NCBI GenBank assembly: GCA_028278265.1
Contig: JANQET010000197.1
Coordinates: 27,309 to 91,308 of the forward strand
Origin: Myxococcota bacterium
GTDB taxonomy: Bacteria > Myxococcota_A > Polyangia > JAAYKL01
DNA length: 64,000 bases
Direction of reading: 5' to 3'
This document shows, piece after piece, positions 19,776 through 58,850 of the stretch. Numbering within the stretch: the stretch's first letter is position 1; every line of letters starts with the position of its first letter. Below the pieces are notes generated by a model, which was given only the letters and a program-made list of their open reading frames with translations, did no database searches and was not told the DNA's origin. Both the position numbers and the translations under genes were made by a program.

Positions 19776-20696
19776 CTAGGGATTGGCCAAGTCGATGCGT
19801 TCGATCTCTTCGAGAATGTCTTCCACACCCAGCTTGGTCACCTTGGTGATGCGCATCGTCGAGGTCTCCAGGATGAAGTAGGCGCCGAGATCCTGAAACA
19901 GACATTCGCCGTCGCAACCACCAAACCAAATATCCTGCTCTGTGGTGTCCTGGGCACGCCAGCCACCGACCCAGTTGTACTCATCCATCTTGGCGCTGCA
20001 TTCATCTGCCGGGAGGGTGACGCCACTGCTCAAGTTGGGAAAGTACATCCCGACTATGTCGCTGTGAAATCCCTGAATCTCCTCGTACGCGTTGGCGATG
20101 AGCACGAACTGGATCTCACAACCCGGTCATCCGGGTGTGGCTAGACAAAAGACTAGCGACTTGACCTCCCGTTGGTTGAGAAACACCTCGCACATATCCA
20201 GCTTGGCCACATCACCGCCGGTGCTATAGATGGCGGTGAAGTCGATCATGGGTACCGGATTGTCCAGATCCCATCCGTGGGGTCCTGCTGGATAATCCTC
20301 TTCGCAGCTCAAATCGGTATCGATGTCCGAATCGCTGTCACTGTCCCCGTCCGTGTCGCTGTCTGCGTCACTATCTGTATCGGAATCCGCATCAGTATCG
20401 CTGTCACTATCGCTGTCGCTATCGGAATCCGCATCCATATCGGCATCGCCATCAGCGTCAGCATCGCTATCGGAATCTGTATCTGCGTCCCCGTCAGCAT
20501 CGGAGTCCCCGTCTCCGTCCGCGTCCCCGTCGGCATCCCCGTCCCCGTCACCGTCCCCATCCGTATCTCCGTCCGTATCCGCGTCGCCACTCGCAGCGTC
20601 GTTTTCAGCAGGATCGTCGGACTCACCGGAACAGCCGGCAAGCGCAAAGAGGAACAGCCAAACAATCAATCGGTGAATCCTGAGCGGAGATGTCAT
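19776..20696 (-). CDS. candidate selenoprotein: thioredoxin-like lipoprotein with Asp/Ser-rich linker, UPGC motif (UGA at 20127-20129)
   Basis: ORFs 20127..20696 and 19776..20105 are in one frame separated by a single TGA: ...[30 protein letters not shown]...[15 protein letters not shown]. Lipobox FALAGCSGE. Confidence 0.85.
20091..20122 (-). promoter_or_regulatory. candidate bSECIS for UGA 20127
   Basis: On the minus strand: GTTG-TGAG-[atc]-CA-GTTCG-TG-CTCA-[tcgc]-CAAC; loop G at +18 from the UGA. Weaker stem than in the paralogs. Confidence 0.5.
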
Positions 20697-26581: not shown

Positions 26582-28264
26582 TTGGGGGATAATCTAATGC
26601 GGCTTGTGATTTGCGTGTTCATCATTTCTGCCGGTTTGGCCAGCGGGTGTTTCAGTGCCGGCTCCGACTTCAACAGCGACATCGATGCGGGCACGGTTGA
26701 CGATGAGGTTGCGTTCTCCCATCCCGCAGGTACATTTGTCACTCCTTTTGAGCTCGAGCTGACCAGTGACGTTCAAGGCGCGGAGATTTATTACACGCTT
26801 GACGGATCCACCCCTGGGGACGAGCCGGGAGAGGACACCCTCTATACGGGACCGATCGAAATCGACGAGACCAGTTGGGTCCGTGCGCGGCTGTTCACTG
26901 CTGAAGCGGCGGTGGGTCCGATTACCAGTCGTGCGTACATCGCGCTGGAGCCGGCGCTCGCCTCGTTTGAATCCAATCTCCCCCTCATCATCATCGATAC
27001 GTTCGGGTACGACATCGACGAAGAGTGGGAAGAATACCCCCGTCCCTACAGACCCGTGCTCAGTGTGTTCATCGATGGCGATGAATCGTCTCTCACCTCC
27101 ATCCTCGATTCGGCGCAGCATGCGGGATATGGCGGAATGCACGTACGGGGACAGAGCACCGCCGAATACGACAAAAAGCAGTACAAGTTTGAAACTTGGG
27201 ATGAAGCCGATCAAGACATCGAGGTCTCCCTGCTCGGGTTTCCCGAGGAGTCGGACTGGGTGATTCACGGTCCATACTCGGACAAGACGCTGATGCGCAA
27301 TTTTCTGATGTACACCTGGAGCAATCTTATCGGCCGCTACGCGGTGCGCACCCGATTTGCCGAGCTGTTCATGGCACAGGGGGGAAAGAGAATCGAAGCG
27401 GACGATTATCGCGGTGTCTACGTCTTCATGGAGAAGATCAAGCGGGACAAGGATCGGGTGAACGTGGAAAAGCTCGGGCCGGATGACGACAGCGAGCCGG
27501 AGATAAAAGGGGGGTACATCCTCAAGCGGGATTGGTGGGAAGAGGAGGAGCCGGAGACCTGGTTTCAAACAGAACAGTACGCCGATGTGCTGATGTTTGA
27601 GTATCCCAAGCCCGACCGGATCACCGATGAACAGCGGGACTGGATTGCCGGCTATGTCAATGCCTTTGAGAACGCGCTGAAGGGCCCGGACTTCGCCGAT
27701 CCGGAGGAGGGGTACGAAAAATATATCGATGTGGGATCATTCATCGATCACCATATTCTCGTGGAGTTGGCCCGCAATGTGGACGGGTTCGTGTTGAGCA
27801 CTTACATGTTCAAGCCCCGGGAGGGCAAGCTGACCATGGGGCCGATTTGGGATTACAACGGCGCTCTGGGCAATGCCGACTACTTCGAAGCCTGGAAGCC
27901 CGAGGGCTGGCACCACCTCAACCCGGAGTTTCCCGAGGACAATCCCAACGGGTATCGGTGGTACGAACGTCTGTTCGAGGATCCCGGGTTCGGTCAGCGG
28001 TATGCGGCGCGTTGGGCAGAATTGCGATCGGGTGAACTGGCGACGGCAAAGCTCACGGACAAGATCGACCACAACGCAGAAACATTGGCTGAAGCTGTCG
28101 GACGCAATTTCGAGCGTTGGGATATCCTCGGCGAGTATATCTGGCCCAACGATCCCGCCGCTGAGGACCGCCAATCCTACAAAGAAGAGATCGACTATCT
28201 GAAGAATTGGCTGGGCACCAGACTCGAATGGATCGATCTCGCCGTTCTGGAATTCGATCAGTAA
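26582..28264 (+). CDS. CotH-family protein (lipoprotein) with N-terminal chitobiase-type domain
   Basis: AEIYYTLDGSTPGDEPGEDTLYTGPIEI; DDYRGVYVFMEKIKRDKDRVNVEKL...GGYILKRD...DHHILVELARNVDGFVLSTYMFKPREGKLTMGPIWDYNGALGNADY. Confidence 0.85.
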   Translation: MGDNLMRLVICVFIISAGLASGCFSAGSDFNSDIDAGTVDDEVAFSHPAGTFVTPFELELTSDVQGAEIYYTLDGSTPGDEPGEDTLYTGPIEIDETSWVRARLFTAEAAVGPITSRAYIALEPALASFESNLPLIIIDTFGYDIDEEWEEYPRPYRPVLSVFIDGDESSLTSILDSAQHAGYGGMHVRGQSTAEYDKKQYKFETWDEADQDIEVSLLGFPEESDWVIHGPYSDKTLMRNFLMYTWSNLIGRYAVRTRFAELFMAQGGKRIEADDYRGVYVFMEKIKRDKDRVNVEKLGPDDDSEPEIKGGYILKRDWWEEEEPETWFQTEQYADVLMFEYPKPDRITDEQRDWIAGYVNAFENALKGPDFADPEEGYEKYIDVGSFIDHHILVELARNVDGFVLSTYMFKPREGKLTMGPIWDYNGALGNADYFEAWKPEGWHHLNPEFPEDNPNGYRWYERLFEDPGFGQRYAARWAELRSGELATAKLTDKIDHNAETLAEAVGRNFERWDILGEYIWPNDPAAEDRQSYKEEIDYLKNWLGTRLEWIDLAVLEFDQ

Positions 28265-30791: not shown

Positions 30792-31016
30792 CCTGAAATT
30801 CAAACAGCTGCCGTTGATCAACGGGTTGGCGACCAGTGGATTGTCCGCTCGTGCCGGTGTGTCTGGCCCCGGGCTGACAAAATGCTCACTGATATGCAAG
30901 GATACGAGTAAAATATTGTATTGTTTTCTTTAATATTGTACCAAAGTGAGAATGGGGTACTCACCTCAGTTGAGGTCGAGCTCTTTCTAATAACGCGTTT
31001 TGAAAAGGAGAAACAA

Positions 31017-31964
31017 ATGAAACGAGTGGTAGTCGACATAGTTAGGCTGCTCGCCTTGTCTCTTTGTATCGTCAGTTTGACGATCAGCGGCTTGGCGTGC
31101 GGGGACGATTCCGACCCGTCGGGTGGGGATGGTGACAGTGACGCTGATTCGGACGGTGACGGGGATGGAGACGGTGACGGTGACGGGGACGGGGACGGGG
31201 ACAGCGATGCGGATAGCGACGCGGACTCGGACAGTGATTCGGATTCGGACAGCGACAGTGACAGCGATAGTGATGCGGACAGCGACAGCGATTCGGATAG
31301 CGACAGTGACAGCGATTCGGACAGCGACAGTGACAGCGATAGTGATGCGGACAGTGACAGCGATTCGGATAGCGATAGCGACAGCGATTCCGACGCGGAC
31401 TCGGACAGTGATTCGGATTCGGACAGTGATACCGACTCGGACTCCGATGTGGACACCGAGTGCAATGATATCAGTTGGAAACCGGGCACAGTGATGAGCC
31501 AAGGCCAGACCTCTCCCCGCTGGCCCACCTCCGGGTTGCTCGACAGTGACGGGGATCACTCAGTGGAAACCAACGAAGTCCAGTTTGATATGTGTGATTT
31601 GCGGGTGATGGCGTGGGAGAGGGGAATGAAATGCATCTTCATTCCCGTCGGATCACTTGGGTGAGCTAGCTGTCCTGACGAGTTTCGTCAGATTGGAGAC
31701 GCCAAAGACAAGATTATCGACGCGGACTTGTTCCTCTATGCCTTCTATTGGAACTACTCAAATACACAAACCGGATATGATGCAGTTGTTGCCGGCTACC
31801 TCGATGGGTTTGCTCATGCGTATACGGTTGATGACGGGTATGTGATCGATGGGACCCAACACCCCAACCCCTGGATGGGTGTCGTCGATGTCGAGACAAT
31901 GCATGTCGTCCGGCAGGGAAGCCTCGACGTGGATGACGCGATTGCCGCCTGCCACGGTTTTTAA
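31017..31964 (+). CDS. candidate selenoprotein: thioredoxin-like lipoprotein with Asp/Ser-rich linker, UASC motif (UGA at 31662-31664)
   Basis: RBS AAGGAG; lipobox ISGLACGDD; (DS)n linker; ORFs 30921..31664 and 31728..31964 are in one frame: ...[44 protein letters not shown]...[16 protein letters not shown]. Confidence 0.87.
31675..31691 (+). promoter_or_regulatory. candidate bSECIS for UGA 31662
   Basis: CTGACGA-GTT-TCGTCAG: perfect 7-bp stem, loop G at +18 from the UGA. Confidence 0.8.
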
Positions 31965-32582: not shown

Positions 32583-33950
32583 ATGAGTCTTTCCAGAGAC
32601 GCGAAGGTGAAAGGCGGCTGGTTGCCGCCGGCCAAAGCCCACAAGGCGTGGTTTCGAGGTTTGGCCAAACGCGCAGAGACGCGACAAAGCGAATTGCGGG
32701 CGGTCAAGGAGAAACTGTCTCCTGAGGAAGCGACGGACGCGGAGCCCGTATTTCAACACGATGTGGTACGGGAGTTCAAAGCGCTGATCGAGAGCGACCC
32801 CATCATCCGGATGTACATGGTGAAAATGATCGATCAGGTGCCCGGGTACTACAAGGAGAACCCTGGTGACGGACAGTATCTCGAAAGCATCGATCAAATG
32901 TTGATGATGATCGACACGGTGTTGGGTGAGACGCCTCTCTTTTCCGACTCCGGCTTGGTGGGGTTTCCGATCAACGCGATCCTCGACTGGTCCATGGGCG
33001 TGCCTGCCGGGTTCGCGCTCTATCGGCTCGACAAGATAAACGAGATGTACAAGAGGATTCTCGACGTCTACACCGACTTTCTAGGTAGCACCGCCTCCTT
33101 GGATTCACTGACCGAGCAATACAAGGAGCACTCCGAACAGAGCTGGATGTCCCCGGCAGCGCAAGAGAAGCTGAATATGAAGCAGTACCAAGACCCGGTG
33201 AGTGAGGATCAGCCCCTCTACGGGTACGATTGCTGGAACCATTTCTTTTACCGGGAATTCAACCATATCGACAAACAGCGCCCGATAGAAGAACCCGAAA
33301 ACAAGAGCGTGATCGTCAGCCCCTGTGACTCAACAGTTGTCACTATCCAGCGGAACGTAAGGAAAAAGGACTGGTTCTGGGTGAAGTCCCAGCCCTACTC
33401 ACTGCAGGATATGTTGGCCCCGGACCCGGCACTGCCCCCGGGAAACGACAAGGCACACGATGAGCTGGTCGATCAGTTTGTCGGCGGGGACGTTTATCAG
33501 GCTTTTCTGGCCGCGACAAAGTACCATCGCTGGAACAGCCCGGTAGACGGGGTAATCAAAGCGGCGTACGTCATCCCCGGTACCTATTACTCCGAGGCGG
33601 AATCCGAGACTATGGACGCTTCCGGCCCTGACCTGTCACAGGGGTATATTGCCCATGTGGCTACCCGCGCACTGTTCGTCGTTCAAGCTGACGAGCCCGT
33701 CGGGTTGATCTGCTTTTTGGCCATCGGCATGGCAGAAGTTTCATCGTGTGTGATCAATCCGGATATCCTGCAGACAATCGCCGACAAGGGAGAATGCCCG
33801 ATCAAAAAAAGGGATAGTCTGGGATACTTCCAACACGGAGGCTCCTCTTCCTGCCTGGTCTTCAAAAAGGGGGTCATCAAAGAGTTCAATGCCGCGGTCA
33901 ATGATGATGTCTGGGTTGCGAGAAAAATAGCCACAGCATTTGATGGCTAG
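32583..33950 (+). CDS. phosphatidylserine decarboxylase-like protein
   Basis: SPVDGVIKAAYVIPGTYYSEAE...ALFVVQADEPVGLICFLAIGMAEVSSC...KKRDSLGYFQHGGSSSCLVFKKG; GGSSS self-cleavage-type motif. Confidence 0.85.
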   Translation: MSLSRDAKVKGGWLPPAKAHKAWFRGLAKRAETRQSELRAVKEKLSPEEATDAEPVFQHDVVREFKALIESDPIIRMYMVKMIDQVPGYYKENPGDGQYLESIDQMLMMIDTVLGETPLFSDSGLVGFPINAILDWSMGVPAGFALYRLDKINEMYKRILDVYTDFLGSTASLDSLTEQYKEHSEQSWMSPAAQEKLNMKQYQDPVSEDQPLYGYDCWNHFFYREFNHIDKQRPIEEPENKSVIVSPCDSTVVTIQRNVRKKDWFWVKSQPYSLQDMLAPDPALPPGNDKAHDELVDQFVGGDVYQAFLAATKYHRWNSPVDGVIKAAYVIPGTYYSEAESETMDASGPDLSQGYIAHVATRALFVVQADEPVGLICFLAIGMAEVSSCVINPDILQTIADKGECPIKKRDSLGYFQHGGSSSCLVFKKGVIKEFNAAVNDDVWVARKIATAFDG

Positions 33951-43769: not shown

Positions 43770-44486
43770 TCAGTTGTCGGCCGCTTCTTTGACCGCGTCG
43801 AGAATTTCATCTCCCTCGAGCAGCCCGAAATGGGACGCCCTCAGGGTGTAACCGGTCTGCAAATCGATCACGACGACAAATGGCCGACTGTGATGTTTGG
43901 AAAAACTGGGATGCTCTCCAGTCCAAAAGTTGCCTTCAAAGCCGTCCATATACTCTTCGCCCTGGAGTATCTCGGATGCTTCTTCGTTGGGATATGGGCT
44001 TTGACTGTTTTTGGTATAGACGGCGAACAGCAGCCCGTCTTCGTCCTGTATATCGGAAGTGATTTTCCTTACCGACTCGAACTGAGTCGGACAGGAGGGT
44101 CAGTCATCCGAGCCCAACAGAAAAACCAATGACTTCTTGTCGGAATTGCAGTGGTCCTTGATGTCGAACTCGACATCCTCCATTTCGTCGTCGTCGATTT
44201 TTCCGTTGTCATCGGCGTCATACCAGACGGCGTCTTGCTTCAACCGGGGAACAATATACCCCTCGACGATACCCGCCCCGTCCACATCCCATTTGATATC
44301 ATCACAGTCGCCGTCCCCGTCCCCATCTCCGTCACTATCCCCGTCGCTGTCGCCGTCACTCCCCGAATTCGAGTCTCCTGGATCACAAGCGCCGTTACCG
44401 AGCACAACCCCGGCCAAGAACAAAAAACCGGGCAATGTCCATAGCAGAATTCTCATCTTCATTCCTTTGCTTTCACTTCGTTTCAC
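43770..44486 (-). CDS. candidate selenoprotein: thioredoxin-like lipoprotein, UPSC motif (UGA at 44100-44102)
   Basis: The track shows only 44100..44486. My read-through gives DKKSLVFLLGSDD-U-PSC-PTQFESVRKITSDIQDEDGLLFAVYTKNSQSPYPNEEASEILQGEEYMDGFEGNFWTGEHPSFSKHHSRPFVVVIDLQTGYTLRASHFGLLEGDEILDAVKEAADN* with terminal TGA at 43770. Confidence 0.88.
44072..44090 (-). promoter_or_regulatory. candidate bSECIS for UGA 44100
   Basis: CCGACTC-AGTTC-GAGTCGG on the minus strand: perfect 7-bp stem, loop G at +18 from the UGA. Confidence 0.8.
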
Positions 44487-47382: not shown

Positions 47383-48198
47383 CTACTTGTTGAGCTTTTT
47401 GACCTCACCGAGGAAGTCAAAATCTTTCTGATCTTCCAGACCGCCGCCCTCCGGTATGTCGTATTCCTTTGATTTTTCACCGGAAACGACAACCATCGTG
47501 GATGTGTCGATGACGTACGTGATCGGAAAACGCGGGAAGAATACCCGTTGGCCGTCCGGGCCGCCGGTACCATAGGATTTCAACACGACCAGGGATTCGT
47601 TGTCCTCGATCCGCCAGCCACTTTCCCACTTCCATACCTGGCTGACCAGCTCATCTGTTTCGTCCGCGTACATCGTTTCTTCGGCCAGCGGATTGTTGTA
47701 AAAGAGAGCGACCAGCTCCCCTTTGTTTTTACGAATCTCGCGTTGTACTGCACCTGCCTCCAAGAACCTTGGGGTTGGGGATTCTCAGAAGGGTCAGCGG
47801 AAGCCCTGGTCTTCCGGGAGGGCACAGGCTGCTCCGGCCATCAGCACCAGGGATTTTATCTTGTCCCGTTGACAATAGATATCCCGATAGAAACTCAGCG
47901 TGGTCGGCTCTGCTACGCCGTCGCAATCCCGATCGTAGTATGCCGCGAGCTCGATGTTGGGAACCACCGCTTCCAAATCGAACATGTCTCCCGCGCCCTC
48001 CGGATAATCGCCGCACTCTTCGAGATTATCGGGCTCCTCGGGAATGCAGACGATGTTGGGGTCAGGGCCGGGGTCGTCATCGTCATCTCCACTACCACCA
48101 CTGTCCGGGAGGTCGTCCCCTTCGCTCCCTTCATCGCTGCAGGCCACACCCCACAGTGTCATCATGATGGCCAAAAGAAGTGTTAACAGTTTTTTCAT
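47383..48198 (-). CDS. candidate selenoprotein: thioredoxin-like lipoprotein with two in-frame UGAs (UPFU; UGA at 47794-47796 and 47785-47787)
   Basis: ORFs 47794..48198 and 47383..47763 are in one frame: KIKSLVLMAGAACALPEDQGFR-U-PF-U-ESPTPRFLEAGAVQREIRKNKGELVALFYNNP...FPITYVIDTSTMVVVSG. Lipobox LWGVACSDE. Confidence 0.75.
47760..47772 (-). promoter_or_regulatory. candidate bSECIS for UGA 47785 (and possibly 47794)
   Basis: CCAAG-GTT-CTTGG on the minus strand; loop G at +18 from the second UGA and +27 from the first. Confidence 0.65.
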
Positions 48199-57866: not shown

Positions 57867-58850
57867 ATGCAGATTAATTGGGCAAACAGAATGATTGGAA
57901 TCATTTGGATGATCACCATGGCAGCATGGCTCACGGTGGGTTGTGAATCGGAGCAACCGTCAGAGGTCGGGTCGATTCAGGTGCCGTTGACCGGTGAGGG
58001 GGACAGCGGAGCCCTCTATCGCCTGCGCCACGGCGCTTTCAGGGTGCGGGGGGCCGAGAATGCGACCCTGCTGACCGAGAACCATCTCGGCGAGTCTGCC
58101 ATCGCCCGCGAGCTCTCCGAGGGAGCGTATATCGTCAATTTGCTGCCGGGTTGGCGGCTGGAGAAAGAGGTCGGCGGGATTTTCGAGCCCATCGATGCGG
58201 TGCTCGTCTCCGATAACCCCCAGGGATTTTCAATCGAGGATCAGCTCATCACGACCGTCGTGTTTCGCTTCAAAGCCGGAGAGGACGTCGTGGATCTGGG
58301 CAACGGCATACTGGAAATCGTCATTTCGGTTGATGATGACGACTGCACACCGCCGACCTGGAGCGAGGAAACCGATCAGGTGTTGGAGGATGGGGCGATC
58401 GTACCCAACTGGTCGTTGGACGGGTACGTGGACGTCGATGGTGACGGCGTGGTCGAAGAGACCGCAGCCACCTTCTCCCTTGAAGATAAATTGTGCTCAG
58501 GTGTTCACCGGTTGGTCTTCACCCATTGCGACCTGACCTGCGCCCCCTGTGAGGATTTTCTGACCGAGCTGGCGACAGTGGAAGAAGGGATCAACGCGGC
58601 CGGCGGTGCGATCCTCGCGGTGGTGACCAACGGCTGGGACGATATGCCCGTCGGCGAGGCCCAGACCTATCTCAACACCTACGGCATCGAAGGCAGGTAC
58701 ATCTCGGGCGAGCTGCCCGACTTTCGTTCGGAATTCGTCCCGCTGATCACCGTCATCGATCTCACCACCGCACAAGTGCTCCGAGCCAACGATGTGGGCA
58801 CACACCTCACCGCCGAAGATATCCTCGATATCGTCGAGAATGGTCTCTAG
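57867..58850 (+). CDS. thioredoxin-like lipoprotein with CAPC motif (Cys paralog)
   Basis: Lipobox WLTVGCESE; SGVHRLVFTHCDLT-CAPC-EDFLTELATVEEG...EFVPLITVIDLTTAQVLRANDVG. Confidence 0.85.
   Translation: MQINWANRMIGIIWMITMAAWLTVGCESEQPSEVGSIQVPLTGEGDSGALYRLRHGAFRVRGAENATLLTENHLGESAIARELSEGAYIVNLLPGWRLEKEVGGIFEPIDAVLVSDNPQGFSIEDQLITTVVFRFKAGEDVVDLGNGILEIVISVDDDDCTPPTWSEETDQVLEDGAIVPNWSLDGYVDVDGDGVVEETAATFSLEDKLCSGVHRLVFTHCDLTCAPCEDFLTELATVEEGINAAGGAILAVVTNGWDDMPVGEAQTYLNTYGIEGRYISGELPDFRSEFVPLITVIDLTTAQVLRANDVGTHLTAEDILDIVENGL

Follow-up and report, generated by a model that had tools for sequence, protein, structure and literature searches.

Selenocysteine (Sec) is costly, and a small number of selenoproteins per genome is believed to be the usual case among bacteria that employ it. 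A recent survey of the field lists 119 prokaryotic selenoprotein families, including Prx-like and TlpA-like selenoproteins with UxxC or UxxU motifs (2026 review, PMC13188914). The largest bacterial selenoproteomes known to date are those of the Olavius algarvensis Delta 1 symbiont, with at least 57 genes, and of a Methylomirabilota MAG, with 63 (PMC13188914). Here we describe a gene that very probably encodes a selenoprotein with a thioredoxin fold, together with the paralog family to which it belongs.

Gene structure and the in-frame UGA

The gene lies in a stretch of 64,000 nucleotides, which is called the window in the following. Its features are:

31017 to 31964, forward strand: predicted selenoprotein gene of 315 codons plus stop, ATG to TAA, with UGA read as Sec216; homologues found
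31006 to 31010, forward strand: Shine-Dalgarno sequence AGGAG, 6 nt 5' of the ATG, from the sequence
31017 to 31100, forward strand: predicted lipoprotein signal peptide ending in a lipobox (SGLA-C28), pattern recognized by eye
31101 to 31460, forward strand: low-complexity Asp/Ser/Gly/Ala linker of about 120 residues, from the sequence and the paralogs
31461 to 31961, forward strand: predicted thioredoxin-fold domain, Cys149 to Phe315, about 167 residues, with an EF-hand-like loop at 31542 to 31577, from AlphaFold2, Foldseek and alignment
31662 to 31664, forward strand: in-frame UGA, putative Sec216 of a U-A-S-C motif with partner Cys219, from sequence and alignment
31675 to 31691, forward strand: putative bacterial SECIS hairpin, 7 bp, apical loop GUU, from the fold and family statistics

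The initial annotation had proposed that two open reading frames separated by a UGA form a single frame, and past the TGA at 31662–31664 the frame indeed stays open until the TAA at 31962–31964. The UGA also opens a UxxC motif as proposed, U216-A-S-C219. The start had to be revised: TTG 30921, at which the upstream frame had been taken to begin, has no better support and was dropped in favor of ATG 31017, which is preceded at 6 nt by AGGAG. The protein is predicted to be a lipoprotein from a lipobox, with Cys28, matched by eye only, and pattern reading finds N-termini resembling this signal peptide and lipobox in most paralogs.

Read-through candidates, defined by an open frame of 50 codons or more to either side of a stop, were collected throughout the 64-kb window. 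Among these a GU-loop hairpin together with a nearby Cys occurs only at 31662–31664 and at 44100–44102 on the reverse strand, and the second candidate is a paralog of the first gene. The neighboring genes that were examined gave no functional hint for the gene at 31017–31964; a CotH-kinase domain gene (26582–28264, forward strand) and a phosphatidylserine decarboxylase gene (32583–33950, forward strand) lie nearby with no obvious functional link.

The paralog family

The genome is a metagenome bin of 516 contigs with a completeness of 90.65% and a contamination of 3.73%. A tblastn search of the domain against this genome found 13 places: in 12 of these an in-frame TGA lies at the motif, and the remaining one reads CAPC; a profile built from this set matched 31 places and a broader profile 38. 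TGA lies within the redox motif of 31 genes, the position having been read in each TGA-bearing match, which sets the number in the genome at 31 at least. Five family members are found inside the window, counting the gene at 31017–31964 and a Cys version; the other four are:

43770 to 44462, reverse strand: paralog with UPSC, TGA at 44100–44102, SECIS hairpin of 7 bp with loop AGTTC
47383 to 48198, reverse strand: paralog with two Sec codons, UPFU, TGA at 47794–47796 and 47785–47787
19776 to 20696, reverse strand: paralog with UPGC, TGA at 20127–20129, hairpin imperfect by the strict rule given below
57867 to 58850, forward strand: Cys paralog with CAPC at the Sec column and no TGA, domain at 58344–58841

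Neither the Sec/Cys column nor the motif's second Cys varies in the alignment of core members, and homologues carry at the Sec column either Sec (TGA) or Cys, the latter for example in the CAPC paralog at 57867–58850. Two of the 31 genes contain two Sec codons three residues apart (UPFU and UETU); UxxU members are the paralog at 47383–48198 on the reverse strand and also L060 and L109 (UPFU, UETU, USFU). One member, L055 (G000:C129:5865–6293), has lost the redox motif (CAIWATTNEP) and is possibly non-catalytic.

Do these paralogs merely reflect strain redundancy in the bin? This source was rejected because the core paralogs are only 18–27% identical to the window domain, because several members share a contig (five on the contig of the window, three on another) and because composition is similar across contigs. 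Given the contamination of the bin, a few paralogs could come from another organism.

Matches to the AhpC/TSA family PF00578 with one in-frame TGA each were also seen on four further contigs (G000:C258, C398, C79 and C38) and are likely further selenoproteins outside the family. Since there are at least four such additional genes, the selenoproteome as a whole probably exceeds 31 plus SelD.

The SECIS hairpin at the locus and across the family

According to a rule that reportedly goes back to Zhang and Gladyshev in 2005, the apical loop of a bacterial SECIS element lies about 16–37 nt from the UGA and has a G in its first two positions. The hairpin downstream of the window UGA, which consists of CTGACGA (31675–31681), a GTT loop (31682–31684) and TCGTCAG (31685–31691), agrees with this rule, as the first nucleotide of its GUU loop is the 18th after the UGA. 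The perfect 7-bp hairpin with a loop beginning in G is present as it had originally been described. The distance of 18 nt after the UGA given with that description holds for the start of the loop, with 17 nt in between, and not for the stem, which begins 10 nt after the UGA.

Of 20,000 dinucleotide shuffles, 9 produced a perfect 7-bp stem closed by a 3-nt G-loop within the zone 12–34 nt downstream, and over both strands of the entire window no more than two perfect 7-bp hairpins have a GTT loop. For the 71-nt region the folding energy is ordinary (z = 0.05). The signal at the single locus is the position and the loop of the hairpin, not its stability, and since the energy of a single locus is uninformative, position-specific hairpin statistics and arm covariation were used instead.

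Under a strict rule demanding a stem of at least 5 bp and a GU-containing loop, a hairpin with its loop starting 12–34 nt downstream accompanies 82% of 62 Sec codons in the family and its relatives, a value that is descriptive because the zone was picked after the first folds and with the known bacterial rule in hand. Cys genes and other offsets serve as control: the same rule finds a hairpin in 10% of 30 Cys homologues, and at ten other offsets in the Sec genes in at most 10%. The strict rule is failed by 11 of the 62 Sec codons.

Most loops in the family begin 15–17 nt after the UGA and are of the GUU, AGUUC and GGUC types, and in one group of members the loops are AGUU and lie 29 nt downstream. 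An AGTT loop at about this distance was seen in L045, L050, L052, L053, L054, L056, L057 and L103, of which L056 and L057 are below the strict stem rule. Where Sec takes the second motif position (CSTU; L098, L099, L101 and L102), the loop starts 21 nt after the UGA. The double-Sec genes possess one hairpin, at a distance of 26 nt downstream from the first UGA and 17 nt from the second, and this single hairpin may serve both.

Arm complementarity, evaluated for 59 genes without selection by hairpin, peaks at a loop centre of 18 nt, where it reaches 0.67 as compared to 0.47 when 5' and 3' arms are swapped between genes (z = 9.0, kinship uncorrected). The other registers act as control for this permutation, and the second best of the 38 registers reaches z = 4.0. 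This covariation of the arms is the pattern that compensatory change leaves in a conserved structure, and it is found at the register of the window hairpin.

Relatives, phylogeny and selection

In the same family-level lineage, G001, G010 and G012 contain seven matches each, G005 contains 13 and G004 two. The CxxU form (CSTU) was found in G001, G010 and G012, and a more distant genome, G050, carries a tandem set of UxxC forms. Other members of the class with matches have Cys forms only, and in a sample of 284 genomes from across the phylum only the lineage yields TGA-bearing matches at E up to 1e-10. The family is also found in four MAGs listed in GTDB as "Deltaproteobacteria bacterium" (CSMAG_306, CSMAG_220, CSMAG_2956 and STA_58). 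The domain tree places the window gene together with two Sec genes of G005 (support 99/95) and shows Sec forms interspersed with Cys forms. By these sequences, Sec and Cys exchange at the motif within the lineage, in which UxxC, CxxU and UxxU forms occur.

The search for relatives of the window gene returned no close orthologue, the nearest being L089 and L094 with about 30% identity, and selection was consequently measured in close pairs of its relatives. In 14 such pairs TGA stands opposite TGA in both members. For the 13 computable pairs dN/dS 3' of the UGA is 0.14–0.55, the same range as upstream; the region downstream of the UGA is under purifying selection in these relatives. The initial annotation had named two observations that would speak against its reading, a stop or an unrelated residue at the Sec column of homologues and a lack of conservation 3' of the UGA. 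Neither is seen: the homologues carry Sec or Cys at this column, and conservation 3' of the UGA shows both in the family alignment and in dN/dS values below 1.

These data bear on one alternative, namely that the UGA is a true stop and the 3' part a pseudogene remnant or the result of a sequencing error. Ordinary gene finding does end the gene here, and TGA is also a normal terminator in this genome, with several of the paralogs ending in TGA. However, the same break would have to be assumed at one codon for 31 diverged paralogs as well as for relatives belonging to other genera, a co-varying hairpin follows the UGA, and the close pairs indicate purifying selection behind it. A true stop is scarcely credible in view of this evidence, and the UGA is taken as a Sec codon in the following.

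Selenocysteine machinery

Is the genome equipped to decode UGA as Sec? SelA, SelB and SelD score over the cut-off and a tRNA-Sec(UCA) is present; contig C30 carries selA, selB and selC as a cluster, and one of the selD genes contains an in-frame TGA of its own. Among 59 genomes searched SelB is found in 30, including all 7 with TGA members (hypergeometric probability about 0.006, calculated by hand with kinship uncorrected), and TGA members are absent from those genomes of the same lineage that lack SelB.

Many genes of this genome contain an in-frame TGA, as would also be expected if UGA were reassigned genome-wide to Trp, Gly or Cys. Against such a reassignment, TGA ends other genes as well as family members, and the long SelB and SelA frames are free of TGA. 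Moreover, the TGA of the family is located at the redox column with Cys as the alternative residue, tRNA-Sec(UCA), SelA, SelB and SelD are present, and the downstream hairpin of the Sec genes is absent from the Cys genes. We consider reassignment extremely improbable and decoding of the UGA as Sec the preferred reading.

The bin (G000) contains two SelBs, which are 34% identical, two SelAs, two SelDs and two tRNA-Sec(UCA), distributed over contigs C30, C341, C421, C441, C47 and C59 (L144–L149). The C30-type SelB also occurs in G005, which belongs to a different genus, and the C341-type is the one common to the lineage; the other SelB of G005 looks divergent from both. Tetranucleotide composition fails to separate the contigs carrying the two sets, which could represent a real dual system or contamination of both bins. 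The subclade containing the 29-nt AGUU SECIS carries Sec in G000 and G005, the only genomes where its Sec members were found and both possessors of the C30-type SelB, and Cys in G001, G010 and G012; the sister group with Cys (L087, L088 and L095) comes from three genomes whose sole SelB is of the other type. It could be imagined that two Sec-decoding systems operate side by side, each SelB being specialized for one SECIS class, and that the second system aided the expansion of the family. Such a specialization fits the division of the subclade into Sec and Cys members according to the C30-type SelB, which is one evolutionary contrast only, and we regard the proposal as speculative and rather improbable. 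L049 and L058 are Sec members of the 29-nt subclade and yet have the 16-nt SECIS type. The literature search returned nothing relevant on a second SelB or on cold-seep selenolipoproteins.

Predicted fold and likely activity

The AlphaFold2 model of the domain, calculated from an input alignment of 13 sequences, has a pLDDT of 83 and a pTM of 0.84. Foldseek groups it with peroxiredoxins and with thiol-disulfide oxidoreductases of the ResA type (best E 2.9e-8, TM 0.62/0.69, 18% identity), which upholds the earlier assignment of a thioredoxin-like domain. In model and alignment Sec and Cys are residues 68 and 71 of the domain, and the first core helix begins at domain residue 71. The thioredoxin core is preceded by a conserved acidic EF-hand-like loop, located at 31542–31577 in the window copy and reading DQDGDGYAEQEE in other members. 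The Pfam EF-hand model touches one member (E 0.033), and the acidic loop may bind calcium.

Neither Pfam nor NCBIfam gave a match to the window protein. Among the 13 core members the weak best Pfam matches are AhpC-TSA and Redoxin, with AhpC-TSA touching four (best E 0.0012), and weak NCBIfam matches were obtained for NF053656 in two members (best E 0.0091) and for NF040769 in three (best E 0.00045). When 84 members were scanned against NCBIfam at E up to 0.001, no selenoprotein model covered the group, SelL_rel_redox having matched one member.

How could such a protein be made and what might it do? SelB with GTP and Sec-tRNA(Sec) would bind the hairpin at 31675–31691, and the ribosome would decode the UGA at 31662 as Sec216 instead of stopping. 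The protein would then be exported and lipidated at Cys28, and the acidic Asp/Ser linker would keep the domain off the membrane. Within the ResA/TlpA/peroxiredoxin-like domain Sec216 and Cys219 could form a selenol-thiol redox couple, whose most likely task would be the reduction of disulfides or peroxides outside the cytoplasm. Overall, the protein is probably an extracytoplasmic selenol-thiol oxidoreductase that is lipid-anchored on an acidic tether.

The main functional rival is that the Sec domain belongs to a peroxidase or a metal- or metalloid-handling protein and not to a disulfide oxidoreductase. The peroxiredoxins that Foldseek returns besides ResA and the weak best Pfam matches are compatible with this proposal, and the UxxU variants resemble a metal-binding UxxU family (PMC13188914). 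In contrast, the best PDB sequence match of the profile is ResA (E 0.00097), and the UxxC motif is positioned at the start of a helix as in thioredoxins, whereas typical peroxiredoxins have TxxC/U (PMC13188914). On balance, a peroxidase or metal-handling function seems possible but unlikely, and a role as disulfide oxidoreductase, taken alone, is moderately favored.

Comparison with known systems

Ordinary gene finding stops at the UGA and no library that was searched models the group, so that the family is probably mis-annotated in public genomes. It offers a natural series in which the benefit of Sec outside the cytoplasm could be followed, together with the gain, shift or loss of SECIS elements after duplication.

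In the recent review the word "lipoprotein" is absent and no family of this architecture was seen in its table, the comparison by sequence having been made via NCBIfam only (PMC13188914). Closest are the Prx-like thiol:disulfide oxidoreductase selenoproteins (PF00578, PMC13188914), which share with the window protein UxxC or UxxU motifs, an AhpC/TlpA-type thioredoxin fold and a bacterial SECIS; unlike these, the window domain has no Pfam match and is part of a predicted lipoprotein with an Asp/Ser linker and, ahead of the core, an EF-hand-like loop. ResA and TlpA are similar in predicted fold, probable extracytoplasmic location and CxxC/UxxC motif, but the window protein would have Sec in place of Cys, an insertion resembling a calcium loop, and a lipid anchor with a long linker where ResA and TlpA have a transmembrane anchor. 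NF053656 ("TUGYCR motif thioredoxin fold (seleno)protein") and NF040769 ("SelL-related redox protein") are likewise thioredoxin-fold redox families, but the window protein is not matched by either and the matches of other members are far too weak for membership. With the selenoprotein-rich genomes of Olavius Delta 1 and Methylomirabilota this bin shares a large selenoproteome in one bacterial genome, the difference being that the count of at least 31 genes given here refers to one expanded lipoprotein family and not to a whole-genome total. In kind, the protein belongs to the UxxC/UxxU redoxins that are already known; what stands out is the lineage-specific expansion of lipoproteins with UxxC, CxxU and UxxU forms. 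By computation, one uncultured deltaproteobacterial genome is predicted to encode at least 31 Sec-containing thioredoxin-like lipoproteins that go unrecognized in the curated databases searched.
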